From Acidimicrobiales bacterium (GTDB taxonomy: Bacteria > Actinomycetota > Acidimicrobiia > Acidimicrobiales > UBA8190), in contig DATKSK010000042.1 of NCBI GenBank assembly GCA_035531755.1, positions 1-64,000 on the forward strand: a DNA stretch of 64,000 nucleotides, read 5' to 3'. The position numbers and the translations under genes are program-made. Below the pieces are notes generated by a model. It had not been told where the DNA came from and searched no databases. It was given only the letters and a program-made list of their open reading frames with translations. Below, piece after piece: positions 13,399 to 42,385 of the stretch (the stretch's first letter is position 1; each line of letters opens with the position of its first letter).

Positions 13399-14463
13399 TC
13401 AGGTGTCCGGGAACATCTCCAGGACGGCAACCGCCTCGCCGGCGTGATCCAGGAAGAGGTCGAGCACGTCGGGATCGAAGCTGGTGGCTCGAGCTGATCG
13501 CATGATATCGAGCGCCTCGTCGACCGGGAGCGCCGGCTTGTACACGCGACGGCTCACAAGGGCGTCGAACACGTCGGCCACGGCCGCGATGCGGCCCTCG
13601 AGCGCGATCTCCTCTCCGGCGAGCCCCCGGGGATAGCCGCTGCCGTCCCAACGCTCGTGATGGGTGTGGGCGATCACCGCCGCCATCACCATCAGGGGTT
13701 GGTCCGACTTGTCCAGGATCTCGAATCCCAACTCGGCGTGCTGCTTGATGACGTCGAACTCCTCCGGCGTCACCCGCCCGGGTTTCAGGAGGATGCTGTC
13801 GGGAACGCCCACCTTGCCGACGTCGTGCATGGCGGCGGCGAGCCGGATCGACGCACACTGCTCGTCCCCCAACCCGCACAACCCGCCGAGCAGCTCGGCG
13901 TACTGGCTCATGCGCTCGATGTGCTGGCCCGTCTCGAAGTCACGGCCCTCGATGGCCCGGGCCAGGGCCTTGATGGTGTCCTCGCTCGTCCGACGGAGGC
14001 TCGTCTCGCTGTCCTCGAGACGGTGCACGGTCTCGCCGAGGGCCTGCGTGCGCTCCACCACCATCTGCTCGAGCTGAACCCGGTAGGTGTCGTTCTCGGT
14101 CTCGACGCGGGCGCGCAACAGTGCGTTGGCCACCGCGATCACCACCTGGTTCACCTCGAACGGCTTGGTCACGTACCCGTAGGCCCCGAGCCCCAGGGCG
14201 ATGGTGGCGAACCCCGGGTCGGTCACGCCCGAGACCATCACGATGGGCAGCCACGGAAACTGGGCGCGCACGTAGCGCAAGAGCGCCACGCCGTGCTCGT
14301 CGGGCATCATCACATCGCACAGGACCAGCTCGTAGTGATTGATCCTCAGGGCGTGGCGGGCTTCTTCGACCGTCGACACCGTGTCGCAGCCGTAGCCGTG
14401 CCGGGCGAGCATGCGAACCAGGGCCCGGCGGACGGCGTCCTCGTCGTCGACGACCAGGATCAT
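13399..14463 (-). CDS. Response regulator with HD-GYP c-di-GMP phosphodiesterase domain
   Basis: 354 residues. Receiver domain 1-118 with Asp6/Asp7, phosphoacceptor Asp50 (LVLCDVMMPDEHG) and Lys100 (VTKPF). A coiled-coil linker runs 120-160. The HD-GYP domain follows: His181 (GQHIERM), HD at 213-214 (MHDVGKVGVPD) and GYP at 276-278 (WDGSGYP). HD-GYP proteins hydrolyse cyclic di-GMP, so phosphorylation probably tunes c-di-GMP turnover. It lies 18 bp downstream of the hybrid kinase gene, its likely partner. Starts at ATG 14463. Confidence 0.92.
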   Translation of the reverse strand: MILVVDDEDAVRRALVRMLARHGYGCDTVSTVEEARHALRINHYELVLCDVMMPDEHGVALLRYVRAQFPWLPIVMVSGVTDPGFATIALGLGAYGYVTKPFEVNQVVIAVANALLRARVETENDTYRVQLEQMVVERTQALGETVHRLEDSETSLRRTSEDTIKALARAIEGRDFETGQHIERMSQYAELLGGLCGLGDEQCASIRLAAAMHDVGKVGVPDSILLKPGRVTPEEFDVIKQHAELGFEILDKSDQPLMVMAAVIAHTHHERWDGSGYPRGLAGEEIALEGRIAAVADVFDALVSRRVYKPALPVDEALDIMRSARATSFDPDVLDLFLDHAGEAVAVLEMFPDT

Positions 14464-14481
14464 GCGGCGAACCCGCGACGA

Positions 14482-16473
14482 TCAATCACCGAGCACTGCC
14501 CGGATCTTGACCAGGAGCGCGGCCTCTGTGAACGGCTTGCTGATGAGTGCGACACCCCTCTCCAACGTTCCTCGGGCGGAGAGCACGGACTGGGCGTATC
14601 CGGACATGAAGATCACGCGCACATCCGGATCGGCCGCTGTGATCTGCTCTGCCATCTCGTTGCCCAGCATGTGCGGCATCACGACATCGGTGACCAGCAG
14701 GTCGATCTCACCCTGGTGCGCGGATGCAGCCGCAATGGCGTCCGCGCTGCAGCTCGCCGACATGACGCGATACCCGTGGCGCGTGAGAATGCGCACGGTG
14801 AGGGCGCGCATGGCGTCCTCGTCCTCGACGACGAGCACCGTCACGCCCTTGGTGTCCTTGCTTTCTTCCTCGACCTCCTCCTCGATCCCGACCTGCTCGG
14901 CTGACACGTCGGTGAGCGGGAGCAGCACGCTGACGGTCGTGCCGAATCCGGGCTCCGAGTAGATCTGGATGTCCCCGCCCGCCTGGTTCACGATGCCGTA
15001 CACGGTGGCCAGACCCAAACCCGTTCCGACGCCCGCCGACTTCGTCGTGAAGAACGGCTCGAAGGCGCGCTCGACGATCGTGCGCTCCATGCCGATGCCC
15101 GTATCGCTCACCCGTAGGCGCACATGGGGCCCGACCGATCCCTCGCGGCGTTGCGAGGCGTGCGCCTCATCGATGACCACGTTCTCGGTATCGATGGTCA
15201 GCGTCCCCCCACCGGGCATGGCGTCGCGGGCGTTCAGCGCAAGGTTGACGAGCACCTGCTCGAGCTGCCCGGGGTCGGCCATCACGTCGCCGAGGTCGGG
15301 CGCGAGCGCGATGCGCACTTCCACGTCCTCGCCGACAGCCGTACGCAGCAGCTGTTCGACGCCGCGCACGACGTCGCCGAGGTCGACGACCTCGGGGTGG
15401 ACGACGTCGCGGCCGCCGACCGCCAGGAGCTGGCGGGTGATCAGGGCGCCACGTTCCGCCGCCCGGTACGCCTCGTCGAGGTCGTCGGCCACCAGGCGCC
15501 ATCGGGGGTCGGCGCCGGCGGCCGTCTCCTCGGCGACCGCCTTCGCCACCTCCTCGGCCGCGAAAGCGGTGTAGTTGAGGATGATGCCCAGCAGGTTGTT
15601 GAAGTCATGGGCGACGCCGCCGGCAAGCTGGCCCAAGCTCTCGAGCCGTCGGGACCGGTGCATCTGGCCGTCGAATCGCTCCTCGGCGGCCGCGGCCCTG
15701 AGCCGGCTGCGTTCCTCTTCGGCCTCGATCCAAGCCGATGCGTCGCGGATGGCGGCCGAGACGAGCATGCCCCGGTCGGTGGCGAACGTCCCGCTCAAAC
15801 TGACGTCAGCGGCGAACTCGGTGCCGTCGGCACGTCGGGCCCACAATTGGCGCCCCTCCCCCATGAGCCGCGCGCTGGGGCTCTCGAAATACGTGGCCCG
15901 GTGTCGGGAGTGGCCGACGCGGTGTTCATCGGGAACGAGCATCTCCACGGGCGCACCCACCAGCTCATCGTGTTCGTAGCGGAAGAGCCGGACCGCCTTG
16001 TCGTTGACGAATTCGATGCGCCCGTCCCCGCCGACGCACACCATGGCGTCGGGAGCCGCCTCGAGAACGCCGCGGAACATCGATCTGGCCCTGTGCCGGT
16101 CGGTGTCGTCGCGGTGCACGGTCACGACCCCGACGATCTCGCCGGACGGGTCCACCACCGCGCAATGCGACAGGAGGACCGGCACGGGCGAGCCGTCCTT
16201 GCGCACGCGCACGGTCTCGTACGGCAGGACCCGCTCCCCGCGCGTGATCATGGCGAGCACGTCGTTCTCTCGCGACCGGTCCCCCGACGGGCACAGCATG
16301 TCGATCGGCTTGCCGAGAACCTCCGAGGACTCGTATCGGTACAACGCTGCGGCGCTCAGGTTCCACACCACGATGGTCCCGTGCGTCGACGTCCCGATGA
16401 CGGCGTCGAAGGACGAATCGATGATCGGTGTCAACCACGCCTGGGTGTCGAGAAACGCCCCGATCTCGGTCAC
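14482..16473 (-). CDS. Hybrid sensor histidine kinase (PAS-PAS-HisKA-HATPase-REC)
   Basis: About 663 residues, cytoplasmic (no membrane segment). PAS domain 1 near 12-125 (IIDSSFDAVIGTSTHGTIVVWN), PAS 2 near 140-250 (LEAAPDAMVCVGGDGRIEFVND). HisKA has His289 in GGVAHDFNNLLG; the ATPase domain has NLALNARDAM (N box), DTGIGM (G1) and GTGLGLATV (G2). A C-terminal receiver carries Asp596 (TDVVMP). The HDFNN type suggests NtrB-like kinases. The start is uncertain: GTG 16473 lies just before the first PAS; open frame extends to GTG 16611 but that leader is Arg/Gly-rich. Signal unknown. Confidence 0.88.
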   Translation of the reverse strand: MTEIGAFLDTQAWLTPIIDSSFDAVIGTSTHGTIVVWNLSAAALYRYESSEVLGKPIDMLCPSGDRSRENDVLAMITRGERVLPYETVRVRKDGSPVPVLLSHCAVVDPSGEIVGVVTVHRDDTDRHRARSMFRGVLEAAPDAMVCVGGDGRIEFVNDKAVRLFRYEHDELVGAPVEMLVPDEHRVGHSRHRATYFESPSARLMGEGRQLWARRADGTEFAADVSLSGTFATDRGMLVSAAIRDASAWIEAEEERSRLRAAAAEERFDGQMHRSRRLESLGQLAGGVAHDFNNLLGIILNYTAFAAEEVAKAVAEETAAGADPRWRLVADDLDEAYRAAERGALITRQLLAVGGRDVVHPEVVDLGDVVRGVEQLLRTAVGEDVEVRIALAPDLGDVMADPGQLEQVLVNLALNARDAMPGGGTLTIDTENVVIDEAHASQRREGSVGPHVRLRVSDTGIGMERTIVERAFEPFFTTKSAGVGTGLGLATVYGIVNQAGGDIQIYSEPGFGTTVSVLLPLTDVSAEQVGIEEEVEEESKDTKGVTVLVVEDEDAMRALTVRILTRHGYRVMSASCSADAIAAASAHQGEIDLLVTDVVMPHMLGNEMAEQITAADPDVRVIFMSGYAQSVLSARGTLERGVALISKPFTEAALLVKIRAVLGD

Positions 16474-16642
16474 GGTGCCGGCCGAGGTGTCAGCCCACTC
16501 GCCGGCCGGCACAACGGCTCGAAGGCCACGCAGTCCGGAGCCGCCACGCTTTCGCGCGTGGCGGCCGACGACCCGGAAAGGCCCTGGTCGGCCTCCTCGC
16601 CCACTCCCCACCCCTCAGGACACTCAGTGCCCCTCCACGAGT

Positions 16643-16763: not shown

Positions 16764-17225
16764 TCAGGCCTGGCGGTCGGCGACCGGCGGCGAGGGGACC
16801 ACGAGCACCGGGCACGGTGCGAACTCCAGCACGTGCTCGGTCTCGCTCCCGACGTAGGGTGAGCGGACGCCCCGGCGGTCCGACACCGCCATCACGACCA
16901 GGTCGGCCGGCCACGCCCGCGCCTCCTCCACGATGCGCCGCGCCGGCGGCCCGGCCCGCACCACCGACGTCACGGCGTCGGCTCGCACGCCCGCCATCTG
17001 CACCTGGCGGACGACGTGGGCCAGGAGTTGCTCCGCCTCGCGGTGGCGCCGGGCCCCGGTGCCGGGACCGGTGACGTCCTCGATCGCCTGCTCGACGCCA
17101 TGGTCCCCCACCACGGTCAGGACCCTGACGGCCGCCCCCCATCCGGCGGCCAGCGGAGCCGCCCGGCGTGCGGCCTGCAGGCTCTCGTGCGAGTCGTCGA
17201 CGGCCATGAGCACGCGGGCGATCAC
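16764..17225 (-). CDS. Universal stress protein, last gene of the V/A-ATPase operon
   Basis: 153 residues of the UspA fold: VIARVLMAVDDSHESLQAARRAAPLA at the N-terminus, then PADLVVMAVSDRRGVRSPYVGSETEHVLEFAPCPVLVVP. The usual ATP loop GxxGxxxxxxxxGS appears changed to SDRRGVRSPYVGSETE, so ATP binding is uncertain. GTG 17225 overlaps the stop of the subunit D gene (GTGA), so it is translated together with the ATPase. That coupling suggests a stress protein that works with or is dosed with the pump. Confidence 0.85.
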   Translation of the reverse strand: MIARVLMAVDDSHESLQAARRAAPLAAGWGAAVRVLTVVGDHGVEQAIEDVTGPGTGARRHREAEQLLAHVVRQVQMAGVRADAVTSVVRAGPPARRIVEEARAWPADLVVMAVSDRRGVRSPYVGSETEHVLEFAPCPVLVVPSPPVADRQA

Positions 17226-17890
17226 CGGACCGTCCCACCGTCGTCGGACCCGGGCCCGCCCCCCGCGGTCGGGGACGCGCCCCGGCGCCGTTGCGCCCAG
17301 CGGGTCGCCACGCGCTCCTCGCGCTCGAGCTCGTCGAGTCGCAATTCCAGATGGTCGAGTGCCTCTTGGAGCCGCGGCACTCGAAGACGCTCGATCGCCC
17401 GCAGTCGCCGCTGCGTGGCCTGCAGCTCGGCGTCGATGCGCCCATAGGCGTCGTCGGCCACGGCGTGGGCGACGGCCGCCGCCAGCGCCCCACGGTAGGC
17501 GGCGGCTGCCGGGGCCAGCGCGGCGTTCCCCGCCGCCAGCGCAGCCGGCCCCGGGGCGGCGGCGGTGACACGGGCGTCGTCGGGATGTCGCACCCCCATG
17601 GTGTTGCCCCACCGCACGTGGACCTCGGCATGACCGGCGCACGAGGCCACGGCCAGCGCGGTGTCGGTCACCCCCCCGAGCACGCCCGACCGGAGTCCCC
17701 AGCGCTCGGCTTCGACGCACGCCGTATCCCACGCACGCTGCGTGTCGCCGCGCAGCAGGGCCAGGTGCTCTCGTTCGCGCCGGAGCAGCTGGCGCTTGCG
17801 GTCGAGCAGCTCCGCGCCGCGGCGCGCCGCGGCCAGGCGGCCGGAGAGCCACAACCGGCCGGCCCGCCCCGGCGGGACGTGCTCAGCCAT
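17222..17890 (-). CDS. atpD: V/A-type ATPase subunit D (central stalk)
   Basis: 222 residues forming the long alpha-helical rotor stalk that turns inside the A3B3 head. N-terminal helix GRLWLSGRLAAARRGAELLDRKRQLLRREREHL matches the family pattern (LxxLxxRLxxAxRGxxLLxxKRxxL), and the C-terminal helix has RLRAIERLRVPRLQEALDHLELRLDELEREE. ATG 17890 overlaps the subunit B stop by 8 bp; an open frame upstream to 17965 reads through subunit B's repeat tail. Confidence 0.88.
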   Translation of the reverse strand: MAEHVPPGRAGRLWLSGRLAAARRGAELLDRKRQLLRREREHLALLRGDTQRAWDTACVEAERWGLRSGVLGGVTDTALAVASCAGHAEVHVRWGNTMGVRHPDDARVTAAAPGPAALAAGNAALAPAAAAYRGALAAAVAHAVADDAYGRIDAELQATQRRLRAIERLRVPRLQEALDHLELRLDELEREERVATRWAQRRRGASPTAGGGPGSDDGGTVR

Positions 17891-19346
17891 CGTCGCGGTC
17901 GTCCCGGGTGGGCACGGCGTCGCGGTCGTCCCGGGTAGGCACGGCGTCCGACCCGGGCTCGTCACGCCCGTACCGGGCCGCCACGTCGGCCGCGGGCACC
18001 ATGGTGAGCTCGCGTTCGGGGAGGACCGACACCACCCGCCAGGCGCGGGCCAAGGTGTCGTCGATCGTCCGCGACTCGTCGGGGCGCTGGTCGAGCAGCT
18101 CGGCGCCGAAGGCGTCGGCGAACGCCAGGTAGTACCGGTCGGTCTCGGTCAGCGCCGCGGTCCCGATCAGCTCCGCCAGGTCGCGGGCCCGCTGGGCGCG
18201 AGCGAAGGCGGCGACGAGCTGTGCGGCCAGGGCGGGGTGGTCCGACCGGGTCCGGCCGCGGCCCGTCCCCTTGCGCATGAGCCGCGACAGCGAGCCCAGG
18301 ACGTCGACCGGAGGGTACAGGCCCTCGCCGTGGACGTCGGGCGACAGCATCACCTGGCCCTCGGTGATGTACCCCGTGAGATCGGGGACGGGGTGGGTCA
18401 CGTCGCCCGCCGGCATGGTGAGCACAGGGACCAGGGTCACCGAGCCCGGCCGGTCGTGCAGCCGGCCGCAGCGCTCGTAGATCGAGGCCAGGTCGCTGTA
18501 GAGGTACCCGGGATAGGCCCGGCGGCCCGGGATCTCGCCGCGCGCCGCGGACACCTCCCGGACGGCCTCGCAGTAGCTCGTCATGTCGGCCAGCACCACG
18601 AGCACGTGCTCCCCCCGGTCGAAGGCGAGATGCTCGGCGACGGTGAGGACCACGCGGGGAGTCAGGATGCGCTGCACCACGGGGTCGTCGGCGGTGTCGA
18701 GGAACAACGCGAGGTCACCGGCGGCGGCGCGCTCCTCGAGCACACCGCGCATGGCGGCAGCATCGGCGCGGGTCAGGCCCATCGCCCCGACCAGGACCTT
18801 GAACGGCTCCCCGCCGACGTGCGCCTGTGCCGCCAGTTGTGCCGCCAGCTCGAAGTGCGGCAGGCCCGCCGAGGAGAACACGGGCAGCTTCTGGCCCCGG
18901 ACGAGCGTCGTCAGCGCGTCGATGACCGAGATGCCGGTGAGGACCGGGTCACGCGGCACGTCGCGCCGGGTGGGGTTGAGCGGCGCGCCCGCCACGGGGC
19001 GGGTCGTCGTGCCGAGCATGGGCGGGCCGTCGTCGAGGGGTTCACCCAGGCCGTTCCACACCCGACCGAGCCACCCCTCCCCCACGGGGATCTCGAACGG
19101 CCGGCCCTCGAAGGCGACGGACACCGTGTCGGGGTCGATCCCCGCGGTGCCCTGGAGCACCTCCACGACGGCGAGGTCGCGGTGCACCTCGAGCACGAGG
19201 CCCCGGCGCGCCTCGCCCGAGGCCAGGCGCACGGTGGCGATCTCGTCCCAGCCGACGCCCTCGACCCCGGCCACCACGAGCAGCGGGCCCTCGGCGTCGC
19301 GGGCGCCGCGGTACTCGACCGACACGCCGACGTCGGGCGCGCTCAC
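17883..19346 (-). CDS. atpB: V/A-type ATPase subunit B (non-catalytic)
   Basis: 487 residues. Recognised by VEYRGARDAEGPLLVVAGVEGVGWDEIATV, GLGEPLDDGPP, NPTRRDVPRDPVLTGISVIDALTTLVRGQKLPVFSSAGLPHFELAAQLAAQA, AFDRGEHVLVVLADMTSYCEAVREVSAARGEIPGRRAYPGYLYSDLASIYER, and the C-terminal LPERELTMVPAADVAARY. It forms the hexameric head with subunit A. As usual for B, the Walker A is absent. GTG 19346 overlaps the subunit A stop. The extreme C-terminus holds a duplicated AVPTRDDRD. Confidence 0.95.
   Translation of the reverse strand: MSAPDVGVSVEYRGARDAEGPLLVVAGVEGVGWDEIATVRLASGEARRGLVLEVHRDLAVVEVLQGTAGIDPDTVSVAFEGRPFEIPVGEGWLGRVWNGLGEPLDDGPPMLGTTTRPVAGAPLNPTRRDVPRDPVLTGISVIDALTTLVRGQKLPVFSSAGLPHFELAAQLAAQAHVGGEPFKVLVGAMGLTRADAAAMRGVLEERAAAGDLALFLDTADDPVVQRILTPRVVLTVAEHLAFDRGEHVLVVLADMTSYCEAVREVSAARGEIPGRRAYPGYLYSDLASIYERCGRLHDRPGSVTLVPVLTMPAGDVTHPVPDLTGYITEGQVMLSPDVHGEGLYPPVDVLGSLSRLMRKGTGRGRTRSDHPALAAQLVAAFARAQRARDLAELIGTAALTETDRYYLAFADAFGAELLDQRPDESRTIDDTLARAWRVVSVLPERELTMVPAADVAARYGRDEPGSDAVPTRDDRDAVPTRDDRDDG
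17891..17944 (-). repeat. 27-bp tandem duplication in the 3' end of the subunit B gene
   Basis: Two copies of a 27-bp unit differing at one base encode AVPTRDDRD twice at the C-terminus of subunit B, immediately before the subunit D start codon. Confidence 0.85.
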
Positions 19347-21070
19347 CCGAGGGCCTTCAGCACGGCCAGCACCTCGTCGCGCCGGCTCTCGACACCCGCG
19401 GCGTCACCCGGGCCCACCTCGTCGCGCACCCGGGTGACGCCCGACAGGTCGACCTCCTCCACCACCGACGAGGGCACCCCGCCCTCGACGAGGGCGAGGC
19501 ACCGGTCGTGGACGGCCAGGACCATCTCGAGCAGGGCCGCCTGCTTGTCCGGCCGGCAGGCGGCGTCGTTGTCGCTCAACGCGCTCTGCTGCAGCACCGC
19601 CTCGCGCAGCAGCCTCCCCGCCAACAGGACCATCCGCTCGCGCCCGGGCAGCGCGGACAGCCCGACCAATTCGACCACCGACGCCAATCGGTCGGCTTCG
19701 GCGAGGAGGGCGACCGCCCGAGCCCGGTTGCGGGCCCAGGCCGGCCGGCCCGCGGCGGCGTGCCAAGAGCCGATGGCCGCGGCGTCGCGGGAGAACGAAC
19801 GACTCCAGGTGACGGCCGGGTAGTGGCGCGCGTACGCCAGGTCCCGGTCGAGGGACCACAGCGAGCGGACGAATCGCTCGGTGTGCGCCGTCACGGGCTC
19901 GGTGGTGTCGCCCCCTGGGGGCGACACGGCGCCCACGACGGTGACCGATCCCTCGCCGCCGCCGAGGGTGCGGACCCTGCCGGCACGCTCGTAGAAGGCC
20001 GCCAGCGCCGACGCCAGGCCCGCCGGATAGCCCTCCTCGGCGGGCAGCTCGCCGCTGCGGGACGAGAACTCGCGCAAGGCCTCGGCCCACCGGGACGTGG
20101 AGTCGGCGAGCAGAACCGTGTCGTAGCCCATGTCGCGGTAGAACTCCGCCACGGTCATGCCGGTGTAGACACTGGCCTCGCGTGCCATCACCGGCATGTT
20201 CGAGGTGTTGGCGATGACGACCGTCCGCTCGAGCAGGGCCCCGCCCGTCACCGGGTCGTCCAACGCGGCGAGGTCGGCCAACGCGTCGGCCAGCTCGTTG
20301 CCACGCTCGCCGCACCCGACGAACACGATCACGTCGGCGTCCGCCCACTTGACGACCTGCTGGAGCAACACCGTCTTGCCGGTCCCGAACCCACCCGGCA
20401 CCGCGGCCGTGCCCCCCTTCGGCACCGGGAAGAGCAGGTCGACGACGCGCTGGCCCGTGGCCAACGGCGCGCCGGGCCCGAGCCGGGCCTGCACGGGACG
20501 GGCGACGCGCACGGGCCACCACTCGCAGACGGTGACCGGGCGGTCCCCCACGAGCACGACCGGCTCCTCATCGGTCACCTCGCCCCCGCCCGAGACCCAC
20601 GTCACCGTCCCGGCGACCCCCGGCGGCACGAGGACCCGGTGGTCGATCCGCCCGGGCGTGGCGACGGTCCCGAGGACCGTCCCCGGCGCGACCTCGGCAC
20701 CACTGCGCACGCCGGGGACGAACCGCCAGGTCGGGCCCGGGCCGGCCTCACCGGTGAGCGAGCCCGGCGTCAACCAGGCGGGGCGGTGCACGAGGGGCCG
20801 CAACAGGCCGTCGAAGATGCCGCCGAGCAGGCCCGGCCCGAGCATCGCCGACAGCGGCCGGCCCAGCCCGACCACCCGGTCCCCGACGCGCAGGCCACCC
20901 GTGTACTCGTAGGCCTGCGCGGTCACGAGGCCGCGTCGGATCGACACGACCTCGGCCGCCAGGCGCGCGCTCCCGAGCTCCACCACGTCGAGCACGGCCG
21001 TCCCCGTCAAGCCCTCGAGCTCGACGAGCGGGCCGTTCACCCGCACCACGCGTCCCGCGGGCGGCGTCAC
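19343..21070 (-). CDS. atpA: V/A-type ATPase catalytic subunit A
   Basis: 575 residues. Walker A GGFGTGKT near residues 226-233, catalytic region CGERGNELADAL, and DSTSRWAEALREFSSRSGELPAEEGYPAGLASALAAFYERAGR with the usual non-homologous region between residues 90 and 190 (PGSLTGEAGPGPTWRFVPGV). It hydrolyses or makes ATP in the A3B3 head. GTG 21070 is chosen because it forms a GTGA overlap with the subunit E stop; GTG 21076, two codons upstream, is also possible. Confidence 0.97.
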   Translation of the reverse strand: MTPPAGRVVRVNGPLVELEGLTGTAVLDVVELGSARLAAEVVSIRRGLVTAQAYEYTGGLRVGDRVVGLGRPLSAMLGPGLLGGIFDGLLRPLVHRPAWLTPGSLTGEAGPGPTWRFVPGVRSGAEVAPGTVLGTVATPGRIDHRVLVPPGVAGTVTWVSGGGEVTDEEPVVLVGDRPVTVCEWWPVRVARPVQARLGPGAPLATGQRVVDLLFPVPKGGTAAVPGGFGTGKTVLLQQVVKWADADVIVFVGCGERGNELADALADLAALDDPVTGGALLERTVVIANTSNMPVMAREASVYTGMTVAEFYRDMGYDTVLLADSTSRWAEALREFSSRSGELPAEEGYPAGLASALAAFYERAGRVRTLGGGEGSVTVVGAVSPPGGDTTEPVTAHTERFVRSLWSLDRDLAYARHYPAVTWSRSFSRDAAAIGSWHAAAGRPAWARNRARAVALLAEADRLASVVELVGLSALPGRERMVLLAGRLLREAVLQQSALSDNDAACRPDKQAALLEMVLAVHDRCLALVEGGVPSSVVEEVDLSGVTRVRDEVGPGDAAGVESRRDEVLAVLKALG

Positions 21071-21675
21071 GACCACAGCCCCTGCACCTCCCCCGCCATG
21101 GCGGCGATCTGGCGGTCGACCAGGTCCGCGGCGCTCACCACGGCACGGCGCTGACCGTCCTGCGCCACCACGTCGAGGCCGGCCGGGCCCCCGGTGTGCA
21201 CCACGGCACGACCGCCGACCCGGCGCCGCGCCGTGGTCGCGGCACGCGCCGCCAGGGCGCGCACCTCGACCGAGCCCCGGCGCCGCTCCAATTCCTGGAG
21301 TGCCTGTGCCCGTAACGACTCGAACGCCCGGCGGTGGGCGCCGAGCACCAGAGACCGAGCCTCGGCGCGCGTGGCCGCCGACTCGGTGGCGGCGGCGCGC
21401 GCCGCGGCGAGCGCGCCTTGGGCCCGGGCCTCGTCGAGCACGGCGGCGGCCTCGGCCGCGGCGTCGGCCAGCACGTCCAGGGCGTGCTCCTCGGCGGCGT
21501 CGGCGACGGCGCCAGCGGCGCGCCGCGCGTCGTCCTCGATCGCCCGGACCACCGGCTCGAGCGACGCCCGCATGGCGTCCGGCCCGATCGGCGGCGGGCC
21601 CGGGGCGCGGGCGCGTCGTCCCCCGGTGCCGGCTGTCAGGCCGCGCACCTCCACCGACGCCCCCGCGCCGGTCAC
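21067..21675 (-). CDS. atpE: V/A-type ATPase subunit E (peripheral stalk)
   Basis: 202 residues, with an alanine-rich charged helix from about 35 to 130 (AIEDDARRAAGAVADAAEEHALDVLADAAAEAAAVLDEAR) and a C-terminal alpha/beta part ending ADLVDRQIAAMAGEVQGLW. This matches the E subunit layout (helix that pairs with H, globular end contacting the head). GTG 21675 overlaps the subunit F stop (GTGA). The N-terminal 30 residues are Gly/Pro-rich and unusual. Confidence 0.8.
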   Translation of the reverse strand: MTGAGASVEVRGLTAGTGGRRARAPGPPPIGPDAMRASLEPVVRAIEDDARRAAGAVADAAEEHALDVLADAAAEAAAVLDEARAQGALAAARAAATESAATRAEARSLVLGAHRRAFESLRAQALQELERRRGSVEVRALAARAATTARRRVGGRAVVHTGGPAGLDVVAQDGQRRAVVSAADLVDRQIAAMAGEVQGLWS

Positions 21676-21890
21676 GGCGGCATCACCACCGTGAGCACCC
21701 CGGCGGCTGTGGGCACACCGGATCCGAGGGCGGCGGCTGCCGGCGTGAGGACCACGACGGCGACCTCCGCGGACAACGTCGTCAACGCCGTCGCCACCGA
21801 TCGGCGGTCCTCCGCATGCACCACGACGGCGCCGGCGAGCGCGAACCCGTCGGTACGGACAGCCTCACCGATGACGACGACCGTGCCCAT
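21672..21890 (-). CDS. atpF: V/A-type ATPase subunit F, short form
   Basis: 72 residues against about 100 in typical subunit F. The N-terminal Rossmann-like part is present (MGTVVVIGEAVRTDGFALAGAV, then VVVLTPAAAA), but the usual C-terminal helix that contacts subunit D seems missing. Position between K and E supports the call. ATG 21890 starts 4 bp after the K stop. Confidence 0.7.
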   Translation of the reverse strand: MGTVVVIGEAVRTDGFALAGAVVVHAEDRRSVATALTTLSAEVAVVVLTPAAAALGSGVPTAAGVLTVVMPP

Positions 21891-21894
21891 GGGG

Positions 21895-23706
<1,812 letters not shown>

Positions 23707-23720
<14 letters not shown>

Positions 23721-24633
23721 CGAGGACCTCCTCCTCGGCGCCGCCGCGTGCGGCGATCTCGAGTGCGCCCCGTGCTCGCCATGCGTCCGCGGCGAGGAGC
23801 CCGAACGCCCCGACGGTGGACGCCTCGCCGGCGCGCGACCTGCCGACGAGGTCGGACCCTTCCTTCTCGACCGTGGCCCACCACCGGGCCTCGGCCCTCC
23901 ACAGGTCCTCGGGGCCCTCGATGCCGTGGAGCACCCATGCCGCCGAGCGCGGAACGCTCCGGGCCAGCTCGGGCAGCGTGGTCGCGCCGGCCCAGCGGTC
24001 GCCGAGCACGCGTCGGGCGTCTCGCCGTTGCGGTGCGCCCAGCGACGCCAGCGCCCCCGTCACGAGAGCCCGTCCGATCACCATGGCCGCGTAGGACGCC
24101 GCCCAGCGCGACGCCGCCGGGGCTCCGTCGGCCACGCGACGCGCCCAGGTGATCTCGAGCGCGAGCCGGACGGCCGACGGGTCGCCGGTGCCGGGATCAC
24201 CCCATGCCGATGTGGCCAGTGCCCGGCGAACCTCCTCGGGGGTGCGGGCGCCGGACACGCGCGGCCAGGCCGTCGACAAGGCGCCGAGGCGGAACGGCGG
24301 CTCCGCCCCGTACCCGGCGAGGCCGGCCAGGTGCCCGGCGACGTTGTCGATCTCGATGCCCGTGGCCAGCACCCGCAGCCCGCCCCCCGCCACCGCCGGC
24401 CCCCAGCCCGCGAGCACGCGGAGGTGCCAGACGAGGGTCGCGGTCACCGCATGCTGCGCGCTGCCCCGGTCCATCCCGGGCCGCACGTCGTGCCCGTACG
24501 GTGTGCGCGCCAGGGCCTCGACCGCACGGGCCAGCGACGGTGAGGCCGCCAGCTCCCGGGCCCCTCCGGCCCCGATCCGACGGCGGCACAGGCCTCGTCC
24601 CCGAACCTCGGCGGCCACCCACCCCGCACTCAC
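23707..24633 (-). CDS. atpC: V/A-type ATPase subunit C (rotor-ring socket)
   Basis: 308 residues. The AhaC/NtpC family is weakly conserved; supporting features are the all-helical alanine-rich sequence, GIEIDNVAGHLAGLAGYG (family has a similar DxxN motif), and the place between H and I. It links the D/F stalk to the K ring. GTG 24633 overlaps the H stop (GTGA), which sets the start; earlier in-frame sequence is Arg/Gly-rich. Confidence 0.7.
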
Positions 24634-25064
24634 GCGACCGGCCTCCCGGCGGCGGTGACTGCCCGGACCACCGAGTCGACGACCGCGGGCATCCGCTCCC
24701 GGGACACCCGCTCCACCCGCTCGACCTCGGCCCGGGCGACGGCGAGCTGCGCCCGGCACTCATCGGCGGACCGGTCGAGATCGGCTCGGGCCGTCCGCGC
24801 CAGCTCGGCGCCGGCGCCGGCGCGCGCCTCGGCCACCAACCGCTCGGCCTCCTCGTCCGCGTCGGCGCGCCGACGGGCAGCGTGCTGCTCGGCGCCACGC
24901 ACGAGATCGGCGGCACGGCGCTCGGCCTCCGCCAGGAGCGCGAAGACCGGCGCCAGCTCCGACGCCACCTCGACGGCGCGGTCCACCGGGACGCCGGCCG
25001 CTCCCGGCGCACCGGGCACGCCCGGGAAACGCAGACGACGCAAGAACGCCTCGAGTGCCGGCAC
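24630..25064 (-). CDS. atpH: V/A-type ATPase subunit H-like peripheral stalk protein
   Basis: 144 residues, mostly one long charged helix (LLAEAERRAADLVRGAEQHAARRRADADEEAERLVAEARAGAGAELA...), like subunits G/H that pair with E. First gene of the operon. GTG 25064 is chosen because AAGGAG lies 6 bases upstream; GTG 25070 directly abuts that site and is too close. Confidence 0.75.
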   Translation of the reverse strand: MPALEAFLRRLRFPGVPGAPGAAGVPVDRAVEVASELAPVFALLAEAERRAADLVRGAEQHAARRRADADEEAERLVAEARAGAGAELARTARADLDRSADECRAQLAVARAEVERVERVSRERMPAVVDSVVRAVTAAGRPVA

Positions 25065-25104
25065 GGCCACCTCCTTACGCCCGTCGCGCCGCGACCCTGT
25101 CCCG

Positions 25105-25168
25105 AGCCTACGGCCGCACGGCCGACCATGGCAGAGGCAAAGGTCCCTCCTACCAGGACTTTTGCCTT
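25105..25168 (-). promoter_or_regulatory. V/A-ATPase operon promoter with paired DosR-like boxes
   Basis: On the minus strand GGGACCTTTGCCTC (25134-25147) is followed after exactly 23 bp by the -10 hexamer TAGGCT (25105-25110), placing the box at about -49 to -36, centre -42.5. A second, opposed copy AGGACTTTTGCCTT lies on the plus strand at 25155-25168. Together they form the inverted repeat GCAAAGGTCC / GGACTTTTGC. A position overlapping -35 is that of a class II activator. Confidence 0.6.
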
Positions 25169-25206: not shown

Positions 25207-25449
25207 TCAGCCCGCCGCGGCCAGGTAGGCCACGCACCCCTGGACAGTCGACAGGCGGGGGTAGTCGTGCTCGGGGATCTCGACGCCGGTCCGCTCGTGG
25301 AGCCCCACCACGAAGTTGAGGAAGTCGATCGAGTCCAGGTCGAGCGCTTCCTGCAGCGTCTCCCCGGGACCGACCTGGGCCAGGTCGGCCTCGGGGGCCA
25401 CTTCGTGCAGCACGGTGCGGATCACGTCGAGTGCCTCGTCGTCTGTCAT
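25207..25449 (-). CDS. Acyl carrier protein-like protein coupled to the E2 gene
   Basis: 80 residues with the phosphopantetheine motif DLDSIDFLNFV (Ser40) and acidic helices typical of ACPs. ATG 25449 overlaps the stop of the E2 gene (ATGA) and has GGGGGAG upstream. An ACP translated with a 2-oxoacid dehydrogenase is unusual: it could accept an acyl group derived from the complex, or serve lipoate or fatty acid metabolism. Unlike a housekeeping AcpP it has no fab genes next to it. Confidence 0.88.
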   Translation of the reverse strand: MTDDEALDVIRTVLHEVAPEADLAQVGPGETLQEALDLDSIDFLNFVVGLHERTGVEIPEHDYPRLSTVQGCVAYLAAAG

Positions 25450-26924
25450 AGCTCCCCCGGCTCCTGCAATAGGCGGTCGATGGCGGAGAGGAAGATCCCG
25501 CCGCGGTGGCCGTCGCTCGCCCGGTGATCGGCGGACAGCGTGGCGACGACACACGGGCGGACCCCGAGCATTCCCTCGGAGGCCCACGGTCGCTCGGCGA
25601 CCCGGCCGAACCCGACCAATGCGACCTGTGGCGGGTAGATCACGCCGAACACCGCTTCGACGCCCAGGTCGCCCAGGTTGGTGACGGTGATGGTGGGATC
25701 GCTCATCTCCGAGCTGCGCAGCACGCCCGTGCGTGCCCGGCCGACCAGGTCGCGCAGGCTCGCCATCAGGTCGTCGAGGCTCGATCGATCGGTGTCGTGG
25801 ACGGCGGGGGCGATCACGCCGCCCGATCGTAGGGACACCGCCACCCCGACGTGGACGGCTCGGCTCGGCTCGAAGCGGTCGGCGACCATGAAGCCGTTCA
25901 TCTCGGGGACCTGTGCGACGGCCAGGGCGGTCGCCTTGAGCAGCAGCACCGGCATCACGAGGCGCTTCGTCACCGGCCGGTCGAGGTTGGCACGCTCGAG
26001 CCACGCCGACGCACGGCTCATGTCGATGGTCGTGCTCAGGTAGTAGTGGGGGATCTCCCGCTTGGAGCGTGCCATGAGCGCGCCGATGGCGTGCCGCAGG
26101 GCCGCCTGGCGATCGACACCCGCCTCCGCCGTCGAGGCCGGCTCGTTCCCGCCACCACCCACGTCGCCTGGCGCCATCGCCGTCGGCGTCCCCATCGGCG
26201 TCCCCATCGGCATCGCGGTGGCGGCGGCCGCCACGCGGTCCCCCTCCTGCGGTGACGGCACGCCGAGGCGCACGTCGCGCTCGACCACCGCCCCGCCGGG
26301 CCCGGTCCCTTTCACCGACGCCAGGTCGACTCCGGTCTCGGCGGCCAACCGCCGCGCCAAGGGCGAGGAGCGCACGGAGGCCCGTGCGGGCGCCACCCGG
26401 GCCGCGCCCTCCACGTCCGCCCGCGTGACCGCCCCCCCGGCTCCACTCCCCACGATCGTCGACAGGTCCACGCCGAGCGTGCGGGCCACGTGGCGGATCA
26501 CCGGGGACGTGATCACGCCTTTGGGGGGAAGCGTCGGCGGTCGCTGCGGCGGCGCCGCCGTCGCCGGTAGCGCTCCCGATGCCGCCTCCACCGGTGCCTG
26601 TGCCGGAATCGCCGGTGCCCGTGCCGCCTTCGCCGGTGCCCGTGCCGCCTCCACCGGGGCCGCCTCAGCTCGAGCCGGAGCCCGGGCGCCGACCGTGGCC
26701 GCCTCGCCGGGACCGACCCGGGCGAGGACGCTTCCGACGGGCACCTCGGCGCCCTCGGGGACGACGATCTCCTCCACGATCCCGTTCTCGAAGATCTCGA
26801 CCTCGATGGTCGACTTCTCGGTCTCGACCACCGCCACGATGTCCCCACGGTGGACCTCGTCGCCGGGCTTCACCATCCACCGGGAGACGATGCCGCTGTC
26901 CATGTCGGCGCCGAGCGACGGCAT
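25446..26924 (-). CDS. 2-oxoacid dehydrogenase E2 (dihydrolipoamide acyltransferase) with two binding domains
   Basis: 492 residues. Lipoyl domain 1-75 with Lys37 in ETEKST; Ala/Pro linker to about 135; then two successive peripheral-subunit-binding modules, near 139-172 (SPVIRHVARTLGVDLSTIVG) and 186-219 (SSPLARRLAAETGVDLASVK); a second linker; catalytic domain from about 270 with DHRASDG near the C-terminus as the active-site HxxxD. It transfers the acyl group from lipoate to CoA. ATG 26924 is chosen since GGGGGAG lies 6 bases upstream; GTG 26939 would add five residues. Confidence 0.92.
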   Translation of the reverse strand: MPSLGADMDSGIVSRWMVKPGDEVHRGDIVAVVETEKSTIEVEIFENGIVEEIVVPEGAEVPVGSVLARVGPGEAATVGARAPARAEAAPVEAARAPAKAARAPAIPAQAPVEAASGALPATAAPPQRPPTLPPKGVITSPVIRHVARTLGVDLSTIVGSGAGGAVTRADVEGAARVAPARASVRSSPLARRLAAETGVDLASVKGTGPGGAVVERDVRLGVPSPQEGDRVAAAATAMPMGTPMGTPTAMAPGDVGGGGNEPASTAEAGVDRQAALRHAIGALMARSKREIPHYYLSTTIDMSRASAWLERANLDRPVTKRLVMPVLLLKATALAVAQVPEMNGFMVADRFEPSRAVHVGVAVSLRSGGVIAPAVHDTDRSSLDDLMASLRDLVGRARTGVLRSSEMSDPTITVTNLGDLGVEAVFGVIYPPQVALVGFGRVAERPWASEGMLGVRPCVVATLSADHRASDGHRGGIFLSAIDRLLQEPGEL

Positions 26925-26939
26925 GCGGAACTCCCCCAC

Positions 26940-27914
26940 CTACGCCCCCAGTCCGTGCACGGCGGCGACCACGTCGTCACGTTGCGGGAGGGCGTGATCC
27001 TCGAGGTGCTTGGCGTACGGCATGGGCACCTCCACCGAGCACACCCGCGCCACGGGGGCGTCGAGGTCGTAGAACGCGTGCTCGACGATCCGTGCGCTGA
27101 CCTCGGCGGAGAGGCTCCCCGATCGCCACCCCTCGTCGACGACGACGGCCCGGTGCGTCCTGATGACCGACGACACGAACGTCTCGGTGTCGAGTGGCCG
27201 CAGGCTGCGGAGGTCCACGACCTCGGCGTCGATGCCCTCGGGGGCCAGCGCATCAGCCGCCGCCACGGCGGTCCGCAGCGTCCCGCCGTACGCGATGAGC
27301 GTCACGTCGGTCCCCGGGCGAACCACGGCCGCACCGGTGAGCGCGACGTCACCCGCGTCATCGGCCAGTTCGCCCTCCACGTTGTAGAGGCCGCCGTGCT
27401 CGAAGACGAGCACCGGGTCCGGATCGCACAGTGCGGGCCACAGCATGCCCCGTGCGTCCTGGAGCGTGGCCGGTGCAACCACCCGGAGGCCCGGGACATG
27501 CGCATACCAGCCCTCCAGGCTGTGGGAGTGCTGCGCGGCCAATTGCCGACCGGCACCGGTGGTCATCCGGATCACGAGGGGGACGTTGAATTGGCCGCCC
27601 GACATGTGCAGCAGCGCTGCCGCCGTGTTCACGATCTGGTCGAGCGCGAGCAGGCTGAAGTTCACGGTCATGATCTCGACGATCGGCCGCATGCCGCCGA
27701 GAGCCGACCCGATGCCGGCCCCCACGAACGCCGACTCCGACAGCGGCGTGTCGCGCACGCGATCGGGGCCGAACTCCTCGAGCAGTCCGAGACTCACGGC
27801 ATAGCAGCCGCCGTAGCGCCCCACGTCCTCCCCCATGAGAAAGACGCGCTCGTCTCGCTGCATGGCATCACGAATCGCCTCGCGCATCGCTTCGCGGTAG
27901 GTCACGGTGCTCAC
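26940..27914 (-). CDS. 2-oxoacid dehydrogenase E1 beta subunit
   Basis: 324 residues of the PdhB/AcoB family: [75 protein letters not shown], and [25 protein letters not shown]. With E1 alpha it decarboxylates a 2-oxoacid (pyruvate or acetoin most likely, branched chain not excluded) using thiamine diphosphate. GTG 27914 overlaps the E1 alpha stop (GTGA). Confidence 0.93.
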
Positions 27915-28951
27915 GATGCCGCTCCCTTGGGCTCCGAGGTCACGAAACGCTCGAGGTCCTCGACGGGCTCGAGCTCGCCGGCCTCGGCATAGGCCACGGC
28001 GTCCTCGACCTCGGCGGCGACCTCCGCCTCCATGCTGTCGAGATCGTCCTGCGTGAGCACCTGGTCGCTGCGAAGCTGATCGGCGAGCATCGGGATGGGG
28101 TCGCGGTGCTTCCACTGCTCGATCTCCGCCTTGTCGCGATAGCGGTCGGGGTCGTACATGGAGTGTGCGCGGAACCGGTAGGTGCGCAGCTCCAGGAAGT
28201 GCGGCCCGCCGCCGGCCCGCACCGCTTCGACGGCGTGGAGCGCTGCCTCTTCGACACCGAGCACGTCCATGCCGTCGACCTCCCACGACGGCACCCGGTA
28301 CGAGGCCGCCTTGAGCGCCAGGTCGGTCTCCGATTCGGCGCGATCGAGTGCTGTCCCCATGCCGTAGAGGTTGTTCTCGCAGCAGAACAGCACGGGCAGG
28401 TGCCACAGCGCGGCCAGGTTCATGGATTCGTGGAATTCGCCCTCGGCGACCGCACCGTCGCCGAAGAAGCACGCTGTCACGCGCGGCAGCGCCTGCATGT
28501 GGTCGGCCAGGGCGAGGCCGACCGCCAGGGGCAGACCACCACCGACGATGGCATTGCCCCCGTAGAACCTCGTCGCCGCGTCGAACAGGTGCATCGAACC
28601 ACCGCGGCCCCGGCTGCACCCCTCACGCTTGCCTTCGAGCTCGGCCATCACCGAGCGCATGGTGATGCCCCGCGCCAGTGCGTGGCCGTGCTCTCGGTAG
28701 GTGGTGACGACGGCATCGTCGGGGAGGAGGCGCTCCATGACGCCGACGGAGCACGCCTCCTCGCCGATCGCCAGGTGCAGGAACCCGCGGATCCGCTCGG
28801 CGCTGTAGAGCTCCACGCAGCGCTCCTCGAACCGTCGGATGCGCACCATCTGGCGCAGCAGATGGATTCGATGATCGGCCTCGACGGTCACGGCGCGGTC
28901 CCGGGAGCCGGTGGCCCCCGCGGCGCCGGGGGCGTCCGCGGTCTCGGTCAT
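27911..28951 (-). CDS. 2-oxoacid dehydrogenase E1 alpha subunit
   Basis: 346 residues with the thiamine diphosphate motif GDG (164-166) to NN (193-194), plus [20 protein letters not shown] and [14 protein letters not shown]. Closest in look to PdhA/AcoA of the pyruvate or acetoin dehydrogenase type. ATG 28951 overlaps the acs stop (ATGA) and has GGAGGGGG upstream. E3 is not in the operon and must come from elsewhere. Confidence 0.93.
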
Positions 28952-30738
28952 GATGCCCCCTCCAACGTCGAGATGTCTCCTTCGGGCAGGCCGAGCTCGC
29001 GCGCCTTGAGCAGCCGCCGCATGATCTTCCCGCTGCGCGTGTGCGGGAGGTGCTGGTCGAACTCGATCTCGCGTGGTGCCACCGCGGCCCCGAGCCGCTT
29101 GCGCGAGAACCCGACGAGCTCGAGGCGCAGTTCGTCGGTGGCCTCGAAGCCCGGGCGCAGCGCCACGAACGCCTTGACGAGCTCCCCGGCCACCGGGTCG
29201 GGCTTCCCGATGACCCCGGCCTCGGCGACGGCGGGGTGCTCCATCAGGGTCGACTCGACCTCGAACGGCCCGATGAGGTGGCCGGCCGACTTGATGACGT
29301 CATCGGCACGGCCCACGAACCAGAAGTAGCCGTCGGCGTCACGCCGGGCCAGGTCCCCGCTCAGGTACCAGCCGCCGGCGAAGCACGACCGGTAGCGGTC
29401 GTCATCGCCCAGGTACCCGCGGAACATCGACGGCCAGCCGGGGCGGAGGGCGAGCTCGCCCTCCTGGCCCGCAGCGGCCAGGGTCGCTGTCCCGTCCTCG
29501 CCGACCACGACGTTCCCGTGTTCGTCGCGCACGAGGACGGCGGCCTCCACGCCCGGCAGCGGCCTGCCCATCGAGCCGGGCCTGATGTCCATGCATGCGT
29601 AGTTGGCGATCATGATCCCGCCCGTCTCGGTCTGCCACCAGTTGTCGTGGACAGGCAGGCCGAGCGCCTCCTGGCCCCACAGCACGACCTCGGGGTTGAG
29701 GGGCTCGCCGACGCTGGCCACGAAGCGGAGGTGGCTGAGGTCGTGCTCCTGGGCCGCCGCCGCACCCGCCTGCATGAGCATGCGCAATGCCGTCGGTGCC
29801 GTGTACCAGACGGTGACGGCCTCGTCCTCGAGCGTCGAGTACCACCGCTGCGCGTCGAAATCGCCTTCGTCGACGACGCTGGTCACACCGTGGACCAGCG
29901 GGGCGAGGATGCCGTAGGAGGTGCCCGTGACCCACCCGGGGTCGGCCGTGCACCAGAAGACGTCGTCAGGGTGCAGGTCGAGGGCGATCCTCCCCGTGGC
30001 GTGGTGCGACACCACCGCCTCGTGCACGTGGACCGCGCCCTTCGGGGTCCCGGTCGTCCCACTCGTGAAGTGCAGCAGCGCCATGTCCTCGGGGTCGGTC
30101 GGCGCGATCTCGTAGGAGGGGGCGGCCTGTGCCAGCAGCGTCTCGAGGTCGAGGGTGTCGTCGGGGCCCGCATCCGCCGACGACCCGCCGATCAGCAGGA
30201 CGTGGTGAAGATCCGGCAGCTGGTGGCGGATCCCGGCGACCTTGCGCCGGTAGAGGCCGGCGGTGGTGACGAGGACGCGGCCCGATCCCAGCGCCAGACG
30301 TTGGCGGATGGGCTCGGGTCCGAACGCCGCGAACAAGGGGCACAGCACGCTGCGGTGCTTCAGGGTCCCGAGGACCGCCACGTAGAGGTCGGGAACGCGG
30401 GGGGCGAGGACGAAGACGCGCTCGCCGGGCTCGACGCCCAGGCTGTCGAGGACGTTGGCGAAGCGGCTGGACCGCTCGGCGAGCTGACCGTACGACACGT
30501 CGAGACGGGCGCCGGAGCGGTCGATGCACCGCAGCGCCACGTGATCGCGCCGGGGCCCCGCGGCGTGACGGTCGACGGCCTCGTGGGCCATGTTCAGCCC
30601 CCGACCACCGGGCAGCCCGTCGAGCGCCTGTCGGGCGGCCGCCCACGTGAACCCGGCCCGTTCGGCCTCGTAGTCCGCCATGTTGGGCGCCGGCGAACCA
30701 CCGCCGCCCTCCGCCTTGCGGATCGCCTGCCACTGCAC
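28948..30738 (-). CDS. acsA: Acetyl-CoA synthetase (AcsA-like, AMP-forming)
   Basis: 596 residues. Motifs: [21 protein letters not shown] (phosphate loop), [71 protein letters not shown] and the acetylatable lysine region [10 protein letters not shown]. The WWQTE motif points to acetate or short acyl substrates. It makes acetyl-CoA from acetate, ATP and CoA, the same product as the complex encoded downstream. GTG 30738 has AAGGGG 6 bases upstream. Confidence 0.92.
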
Positions 30739-30795
30739 GGGCCACCCCTTTCCTGCCGGGCGCCCGAACCCGTCCCGATGCCACCCGCGCGTTCG

Positions 30796-30838
30796 ACGGT
30801 ACGCCCCGACCGGCGTCGCTCCCAGGGTCCAACGTCAC
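30796..30838 (-). promoter_or_regulatory. acs-pdh-acp operon promoter with DosR-like box
   Basis: On the minus strand GTGACGTTGGACCC (30825-30838, differing from the motif at two or three positions) precedes the -10 hexamer TACCGT (30796-30801) by exactly 23 bp. Predicted transcript start is about 50 bases before GTG 30738. Confidence 0.5.
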
Positions 30839-30889
30839 CTGGGCCGAGGTCGAGGTTCCCCTGCCTCATGCCGCGCACCAGGTCGCCGT

Positions 30890-30903
30890 GGGACTTTCTT
30901 CCC
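30890..30903 (+). promoter_or_regulatory. DosR-like box upstream of a USP gene
   Basis: GGGACTTTCTTCCC, very close to the mycobacterial DosR core GGGACTTTAGTCCC, 37 bases before ATG 30941. A weak opposed half-like copy lies at 30847-30860. No TANNNT hexamer is found at the 23-bp spacing. Confidence 0.45.
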
Positions 30904-30940
30904 TATCGGCCTGCGTGGGCGGGGCGCGAGCGTGGGGCCC

Positions 30941-31378
30941 ATGACGAGGATCGTCGTGGGAGTGGACGGCTCGAACCGCTCCAAGGACGCCCTGCGGTGG
31001 GCGGCTCGGCAGGCCGAGACGACGGGCGCCGCGCTCGACGTGGTCATGGCGTGGGAGCGCCTGAACCCCGATGCCTGGATCCCGCACGAGCCACCGGGGA
31101 CCGATCCGCTGGCGGTGACCCGACGGGCGGTGGAGGGGATCGTCGAACGCGTCCTCGGCGAGCATCCGTCGATCGCGGTCACGACCCGCGCCATGGAAGG
31201 CCCGGCGGCGAAGGTCCTCATCACCGAGGCTTCCGGGGCGGACCTCCTGGTCCTGGGCAACCGGGGGCACGGCGGGTTCGCCGGGCTCCTCCTCGGCTCG
31301 GTCAGCCTGCACTGCCTCACCCACGCACACTGCCCCGTCGTCATCGTCCGACCGACACACAGCCCGATCCGCAGCTGA
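30941..31378 (+). CDS. Universal stress protein, ATP-binding type
   Basis: 145 residues: RIVVGVDGSNRSKDALRWAARQAE, then ADLLVLGNRGHGGFAGLLLGSVSLHC with the complete ATP loop GxxG-x9-GS, then CPVVIVRP. ATP-binding USPs act as stress or dormancy regulators. ATG 30941 follows a DosR-like box; in mycobacteria several USP genes belong to the DosR regulon. It is divergent from the acs operon. Confidence 0.92.
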   Translation: MTRIVVGVDGSNRSKDALRWAARQAETTGAALDVVMAWERLNPDAWIPHEPPGTDPLAVTRRAVEGIVERVLGEHPSIAVTTRAMEGPAAKVLITEASGADLLVLGNRGHGGFAGLLLGSVSLHCLTHAHCPVVIVRPTHSPIRS

Positions 31379-31418
31379 CGGGCCGGCGGGGCTGGGCCGC
31401 CAGGGCCAGGGGCCGAGG

Positions 31419-41819: not shown

Positions 41820-41833
41820 GGGGCGAAGGTCCT
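41820..41833 (-). promoter_or_regulatory. DosR-like box facing the USP-GNAT operon
   Basis: Minus strand AGGACCTTCGCCCC, 84 bp before GTG 41735. The closest hexamer resembling -10 is CAGCAT at 24 bp spacing, which is weak. Confidence 0.45.
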
Positions 41834-41856
41834 GCGGCCAGCCCGCCCGCACCCGT

Positions 41857-41899
41857 GGGACCTTCGACCCTTGCCCGCTCCGGGCATCCGCGCAACGGT
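41857..41899 (+). promoter_or_regulatory. DosR-like box facing archease-rtcB
   Basis: GGGACCTTCGACCC (41857-41870) is a full motif match; AACGGT (41894-41899) sits exactly 23 bp downstream and differs by one base from the TACGGT -10 of gdhA. The predicted transcript would start near 41906, 27 bases before ATG 41933. Confidence 0.5.
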
Positions 41900-41932
41900 G
41901 CGGTGATGGCCGCCTCCGAAGCAGCACCCTGA

Positions 41933-42385
41933 ATGGCGCCTCCGGAACCCGAGCGGGAAGCGTCGCGGGGTCGCGGACACCGGCTCGCTCCTCACACCGC
42001 CGACTGCATCCTCGAGGCGTGGGGCGAGGATCGCACCTCGTGCCTCGCCGAGGCCATGACAGCCCTGGTGGAGGTGTTCGCCGAGGTACACGGCGACGAT
42101 GCGGCCACTCGGACGCTGCCCCTGGCAGCGGAGCCGGGTCCCGACGCCGACGTCCTCGTGGCCCTGCTCGAGGAGGTGATCTACGTCGCCGACGTCTTCG
42201 GCGCCGTGCCCGTCCGCTTCCACGTCGTCGAAGCCGAGGATGGTGGGATCGCGGGTGACATGGTGGTCGTGACCGGGCGCCAGGTCGAGCTCGTCGGGCC
42301 CGTGCCGAAGGGTGTGTCGTACCACGACCTCGAGGTCGGCGAGCACGAGGGGCGGTGGACGTGTCGAGCGGTCGTGGACGTGTGA
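41933..42385 (+). CDS. Archease (RtcB cofactor)
   Basis: 150 residues of the archease/SHS2 fold: [58 protein letters not shown], and the end motif [12 protein letters not shown]. Archease helps RtcB form its guanylate intermediate so that the ligase turns over. ATG 41933 lacks a good ribosome binding site. It overlaps the rtcB start (GTGA), so the two proteins are made together. Confidence 0.9.

Follow-up and report, generated by a model that had tools for sequence, protein, structure and literature searches.

The minus strand of the window (the whole 64,000-nucleotide stretch of DNA analyzed here) carries, at 16764-25070, a V/A-type ATPase operon of nine genes in the order H-C-I-K-F-E-A-B-D, followed by a coupled gene for a universal stress protein (USP) (Table 1). 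All ten genes lie where a first-pass annotation of this DNA had put them. The overlaps of 4-16 bp that it claimed throughout were found at eight junctions (H/C 4, C/I 14, I/K 16, F/E 4, E/A 10, A/B 4, B/D 8, and D/USP 4 bp), the exception being K and F, which do not overlap and are separated by a gap of 4 bp. The GTGA described as joining the USP gene to subunit D does contain both the start of the former and the stop of the latter, and the paired DosR-like boxes described in the promoter are present, with a single strong box (11/12) and a second that reaches only 9/12. An Rfam scan of the window returned no matches.

Table 1 Features of the ATPase locus and its surroundings, in window positions
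Feature	Position	Strand	Evidence and remarks
USP, 153 aa	16764..17225	-	Pfam Usp 93 bits, above cut-off; GTGA-coupled to D; degenerate ATP motif
Subunit D (central axle), 222 aa	17222..17890	-	Pfam ATP-synt_D 93 bits, above cut-off
Subunit B, 487 aa	17883..19346	-	NF003235 592 bits, cut-off 349
Subunit A (catalytic), 577 aa	19343..21076	-	NF003220 661 bits, cut-off 470
Subunit E (peripheral stalk), 202 aa	21067..21675	-	Weak vATP-synt_E/PRK02292 (Pfam 10 bits), position, clade homology
Subunit F, 72 aa	21672..21890	-	Pfam ATP-synt_F 22.2 bits, cut-off 23.5
Subunit K/c (proteolipid), 139 aa	21895..22314	-	Homology to other K subunits and position only
Subunit I/a (stator, membrane), 473 aa	22299..23720	-	Pfam V_ATPase_I 85 bits, above cut-off; conserved Arg motifs
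Subunit C (rotor cap), 308 aa	23707..24633	-	AlphaFold model resembles Thermus subunit C; Pfam 12.4 bits
Subunit H/G (peripheral stalk), 146 aa	24630..25070	-	Pfam V-ATPase_G 27.2 bits, cut-off 28.6; alternative start possible at 25064
DosR-like box 1, GGGACCTTTGCCTC	25134..25147	-	11/12 scored positions; 64-77 bp upstream of subunit H
DosR-like box 2, AGGACTTTTGCCTT	25155..25168	+	9/12 scored positions; inverted pair with box 1
ACP-E2-E1beta-E1alpha-acyl-CoA synthetase cluster	25207..30738	-	Pfam; upstream of ATPase
DosR-like box, GGGACTTTCTTCCC	30890..30903	+	11/12; divergent promoter of acyl-CoA synthetase cluster and canonical USP gene (about 30941-31378, +)

Subunit composition and predicted ion coupling

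The proposed V/A-type identity of the operon is borne out by profile matches above cut-off for subunits A (NF003220) and B (NF003235), whose nucleotide sites are intact, and by the fold of subunit C. The P-loop of subunit A reads GGFGTGKT in the sequence itself, and inspection across the operon found catalytic and ion-path residues intact. The best PDB matches of subunit A are archaeal A-type enzymes (3m4y, 1vdz) and Thermus A chains. As subunit C gives hardly any sequence signal (12.4 bits), its identity was settled by structure: an AlphaFold model made from 28 family members (pLDDT 91.8) had Thermus V-ATPase subunit C as its top PDB match (1r5z, TM 0.64, probability 1.00), a fold that rules out an unrelated protein. 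In the peripheral stalk, G/H falls just under its Pfam cut-off and E far under; both fit by position and clade homology.

Two subunits, I and F, are reduced relative to outgroup enzymes. Subunit I keeps its two arginine motifs and has a short cytoplasmic arm (total length 473 aa, compared with 630-730 aa in outgroups), and subunit F spans 72 aa, without the C-terminal part of the 109-aa F subunit of the outgroup locus L064. Subunit K consists of one hairpin with its own Glu (in AEGIAIYG) and two extra N-terminal hydrophobic segments, while in the outgroup bacteria L059, L060, L064, and L066 K is a double hairpin that has lost the first glutamate. Measured against the published set of Na+ ligands (Gln, and Ser/Thr after Glu; Mulkidjanian and colleagues, PMC2359735), that of K is incomplete: in the alignment Thr takes the place of Gln, and Gly follows Glu. 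Na+ coupling was ruled out on these grounds, and the ATPase is therefore predicted to be proton-coupled. Given one Glu per single K hairpin, each hairpin of the ring is expected to carry one proton, and one carboxylate per hairpin would imply a high proton-to-ATP ratio.

Gene order, lineage, and coexistence with an F-type enzyme

The usual V/A-type gene order is H-I-K-E-C-F-A-B-D. A subunit B scan of named genomes yielded 56 loci, and once all subunits had been mapped, complete actinobacterial loci presented the H-C-I-K-F-E-A-B-D block and outgroups H-I-K-E-...-A-B-D (the mapping is ordered by open-frame start, such that a few neighboring genes look swapped). The same order was found in Acidimicrobiales, Streptosporangiaceae, Thermoleophilia, and four megaplasmids of Streptomyces and Embleya. 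The order that the first-pass annotation called unusual is thus unusual against the common one, but a whole actinobacterial lineage has it, which rules out a peculiarity of the window genome.

In a tree of subunits A and B, the actinobacterial loci form one clade (support 0.995) on a long stem of 0.72 substitutions per site, with Acidimicrobiales-type, Streptosporangiaceae-type, and Thermoleophilia branches. This clade stays apart from other V-type A subunits sampled across Actinomycetota, which leaves descent from the V-type common elsewhere in the phylum unsupported. The presence of such an enzyme, also thought unusual for actinobacteria, is not so in itself: V-type ATPases above cut-off occur in 93/396 sampled genomes of the phylum. 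Most of these, however, belong to another lineage. Within the order Acidimicrobiales the operon was found in only 7 of 397 sampled genomes, and its distribution is therefore patchy.

With regard to transfer, for which phylogeny of A and B had been suggested as a test, metagenome-assembled genomes (MAGs) labelled Eremiobacterota branch within the Acidimicrobiales part of the tree, which means either transfer or misbinning. Two MAGs with this label (L027 and L030) contain the ATPase and the USP and had no DosR ortholog at E 1e-40. Another MAG, REEB240 (L026/L185), is labelled Acidobacteriota; its ATPase locus matches that of G179, placed by the kinship table in the window's family, and REEB240 is therefore likely mislabelled.

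A check for a coexisting F-type operon located one on another contig of the window genome, which is that of a soil actinobacterium, and F-type alpha was present in all 26 carriers checked (24 above cut-off and two as fragments), ruling out the V-type enzyme as sole ATP synthase. No DosR-like box of 10 or more was found in 20 kb around the F-type operon of the window genome.

The linked stress protein and neighboring genes

A USP gene after subunit D, for which a search of relatives had been proposed, recurs in about 18 loci, and its co-production with the ATPase is real. One USP subfamily follows D in the Acidimicrobiales-type loci and in L027 and L030, the USP domain usually starting 6-9 bp after the stop of D. 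Relatives of this subfamily are present in L033 and L038, more distant USPs follow D in L039 and the plasmids L187 and L189, and the close carriers L018, L022, L023, L026, and L036 lack the gene. We compared these proteins with the ATP-binding USP motif G-2x-G-9x-G(S/T). The window USP reads A-V-S-D, then nine residues, then GS; other V-ATPase-linked USPs are similar and likewise lack the first two glycines, and the neighboring USP at 30941 keeps the canonical motif. As most of the motif is missing from the linked USPs, ATP sensing by them appears doubtful, and the control by nucleotide state that the first-pass annotation read into the coupling did not hold up. Instead of sensing ATP, the coupled USP probably accompanies the ATPase as a stress protein.

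The acyl-CoA synthetase cluster upstream of the ATPase adjoins it, or shares an operon with it, in relatives. In G613, one boxed promoter precedes acyl-CoA synthetase-E1-E1-E2-ACP-H-C-I-K-F-E-A-B-D, with a USP gene divergent; in L018 the cluster lies downstream of the ATPase, and it is the cluster's promoter that has the boxes. In the window, genes for ACP, E2, E1beta, E1alpha, an AMP-binding acyl-CoA synthetase, and acetyl-CoA hydrolase span 25207-32654, and the part from ACP to acyl-CoA synthetase recurs beside the ATPase in Acidimicrobiales, with Planobispora and Microbispora sharing some of this arrangement; an ACP of its own is unusual for a 2-oxoacid dehydrogenase cluster. Downstream of the USP gene, 13399-16611 encodes a PAS-histidine kinase-receiver hybrid and a receiver-HD-GYP protein.

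DosR-like boxes and a predicted regulon

DosR is a switch known from dormant tuberculosis bacteria, and Hsp20, WS/DGAT, and USP genes are its hallmark targets. The window genome encodes, at C21:16527-17147, a DosR ortholog with 59% identity to M. tuberculosis DosR over 207 aa (query sequence checked against PDB 3c3w), the next best response regulator reaching 38%. The recognition helix AEKTVKNYVS is identical in the two proteins, and the adjoining gene encodes a GAF histidine kinase, with one GAF domain as called.

Promoter boxes were scored against GGGAC[CT]TTNGNCCC, which has 12 scored positions. Six related promoters (those of the window genome, G595, G613, G747, G179, and L018) contain 12 boxes of 10 or more and 8 of 11 or more, in a set that was put together after the boxes had been seen and with operon starts chosen by us. 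Expected numbers were 0.7 (permuted motifs) and 0.9 (shuffles) at 10 or more, and 0.03 and 0.04, respectively, at 11 or more; the observed numbers were reached by 0/500 permuted motifs and 0/300 shuffles. Cruder promoter intervals gave 9 boxes against 0.88 expected. In G595 (L182 899-1879), a gene for a GNAT-like acetyltransferase separates subunit H from the boxes. Among the 33 loci for which there was an upstream region, 7 had a box of 11 or more; for control genes the figure was 9 of 253 (Fisher p 8e-4). The signal is patchy outside the window's family (f1), and the Streptomyces fungicidicus promoter has no box of 11 or more. Because enrichment over all carriers is modest, the strong box claim is limited to the window's family.

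Genome-wide, GGGACNTTNGNCC occurs 26 times, compared with 3 for the reversed control. Sites of 11-12/12 precede genes for Hsp20, WS/DGAT (wax-ester synthase), acyl-CoA dehydrogenase, and DUF4118, and are also found before a YbjN gene, archease-RtcB, and glutamate dehydrogenase and in the divergent USP/acyl-CoA synthetase promoter; as these loci were partly picked for having sites, the list illustrates the regulon and is no measure of it. At 41820-43815, two DosR-like boxes (AGGACCTTCGCCCC and GGGACCTTCGACCC) stand before an archease gene followed by one for RtcB RNA ligase, suggesting that RNA repair may be part of the dormancy regulon in the window organism. DosR is present in 17 of 20 ATPase carriers, but also in 199/397 genomes of the order and in 17/17 of the family with or without the ATPase; since half of the order has it anyway, co-occurrence proves little, and after this control count we discarded it as proof of control. 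The boxes share the form GGGACCTTCGGCCC with a predicted OsdR site in Streptomyces, and those predicted OsdR sites that were tested were bound by OsdR in EMSA (PMC5069765). From sequence, we predict DosR-type regulation of the operon in this family.

Discussion

How non-growing actinobacteria keep the membrane energized without oxygen is an old question, addressed mostly by work on M. tuberculosis, the F-type enzyme of which is a drug target. Our preferred reading, with a probability of about 0.6, is that a proton-coupled second V/A ATPase has come under DosR-type control in this Acidimicrobiales family and would serve hypoxic survival. By sequence, the operon encodes a complete rotary enzyme of a compact actinobacterial lineage, kept as a second one beside the housekeeping F-type. 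We infer that a DosR/DevR-type response regulator would bind the paired promoter boxes and control the operon in the family, and that hypoxia would induce the ATPase alongside other dormancy genes when respiration fails. Moving one proton per hairpin would be a gearing suited to ATP synthesis at low proton-motive force; the enzyme may also be able to run in reverse, holding up that force, and the coupled USP would act as its companion stress protein. A more specific version, to which we lean less than halfway, is that of a dormancy-specific rotary ATPase, in which the DosR switch would recruit a differently geared V/A enzyme along with the pyruvate-dehydrogenase-like/acyl-CoA synthetase module, so that proton-motive force and ATP would be maintained without oxygen; a dedicated USP that binds no nucleotide would be its partner or its brake.

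The main rival to hypoxic survival is that the enzyme is an acid-homeostasis pump, exporting protons by ATP hydrolysis in acidic peat and permafrost soils. Many carriers are indeed palsa or bog MAGs, K appears proton-specific, the patchy distribution suggests transfer, and there are precedents in the horizontally acquired V-ATPases of acid-tolerant Thaumarchaeota, for which such a role has been proposed (PMC6863869), and in an acid-soil methanotroph (PMC6119699). Many other carriers, however, are Streptosporangiaceae and Streptomyces, which are not known acidophiles; the promoter signals are DosR-like, and K keeps one Glu in each hairpin, whereas the double-hairpin, pump-type K has lost one. 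We regard an acid pump as the less probable reading. Still less probable is an ordinary spare ATPase on a transferable operon with nothing special in its regulation, the boxes being those of another NarL-family regulator or of neighboring genes. This would fit the patchy distribution, the plasmid copies, and the weak or absent boxes of many carriers, but sits poorly with the strong enrichment in six related promoters and with the boxes that this genome has at hallmark dormancy genes. The least credible in our view is the model of the first-pass annotation, in which the pump is tuned by a USP that responds to the ATP/ADP state: translational coupling to D and recurrence speak for it, whereas the missing motif glycines and the several close carriers devoid of any USP tell against it.

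If control by DosR for hypoxic survival is true, the locus would be a natural case of an ATPase swapped or added for dormancy, in a compact V/A-ATPase lineage that spreads partly via megaplasmids. Culturable Streptosporangiaceae and Streptomyces carry the same operon, so the dormancy reading is testable. The component families are each already known. As far as the literature and collections searched go, with most subscription journals outside them, the lineage with its own gene order and reduced subunits is new, as is the predicted place of a V/A-ATPase in a DosR-type regulon, priority being unproven for both; no paper joining DosR with a V-type ATPase was found there.

The DosR/DevR regulon of M. 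tuberculosis and the OsdR regulon of S. coelicolor have in common with the window genome the regulator ortholog, the box sequence, and USP, Hsp20, and WS/DGAT targets, but the paper on the OsdR regulon reports no rotary ATPase, and the terms 'ATPase' and 'ATP synthase' are absent from its text (PMC5069765). Among known enzymes, the Thermus thermophilus V/A-ATPase and the archaeal A-type resemble the window operon in comprising the same nine subunit types, with A matching theirs best and C folding like Thermus subunit C; the window operon differs in gene order, in its short I and F, in the extra N-terminal segments of K, and in being a second enzyme beside an F-type, with a USP attached. Enterococcus-like bacterial V-ATPases (L059, L060, L064, and L066) share homologs of A, B, D, and I, yet they lie on a separate branch of the tree, and the window K, unlike theirs, is a single hairpin that has a Glu of its own and an incomplete set of Na+ ligands. 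The V-type atp operons of acidophilic Archaea are transferred as whole operons and are proton-coupled, as is predicted for the window enzyme (PMC6863869); those, however, belong to an archaeal lineage, are the sole ATPase in cultivated species, and are induced at low pH, whereas the operon of the window is actinobacterial and stands beside an F-type enzyme.
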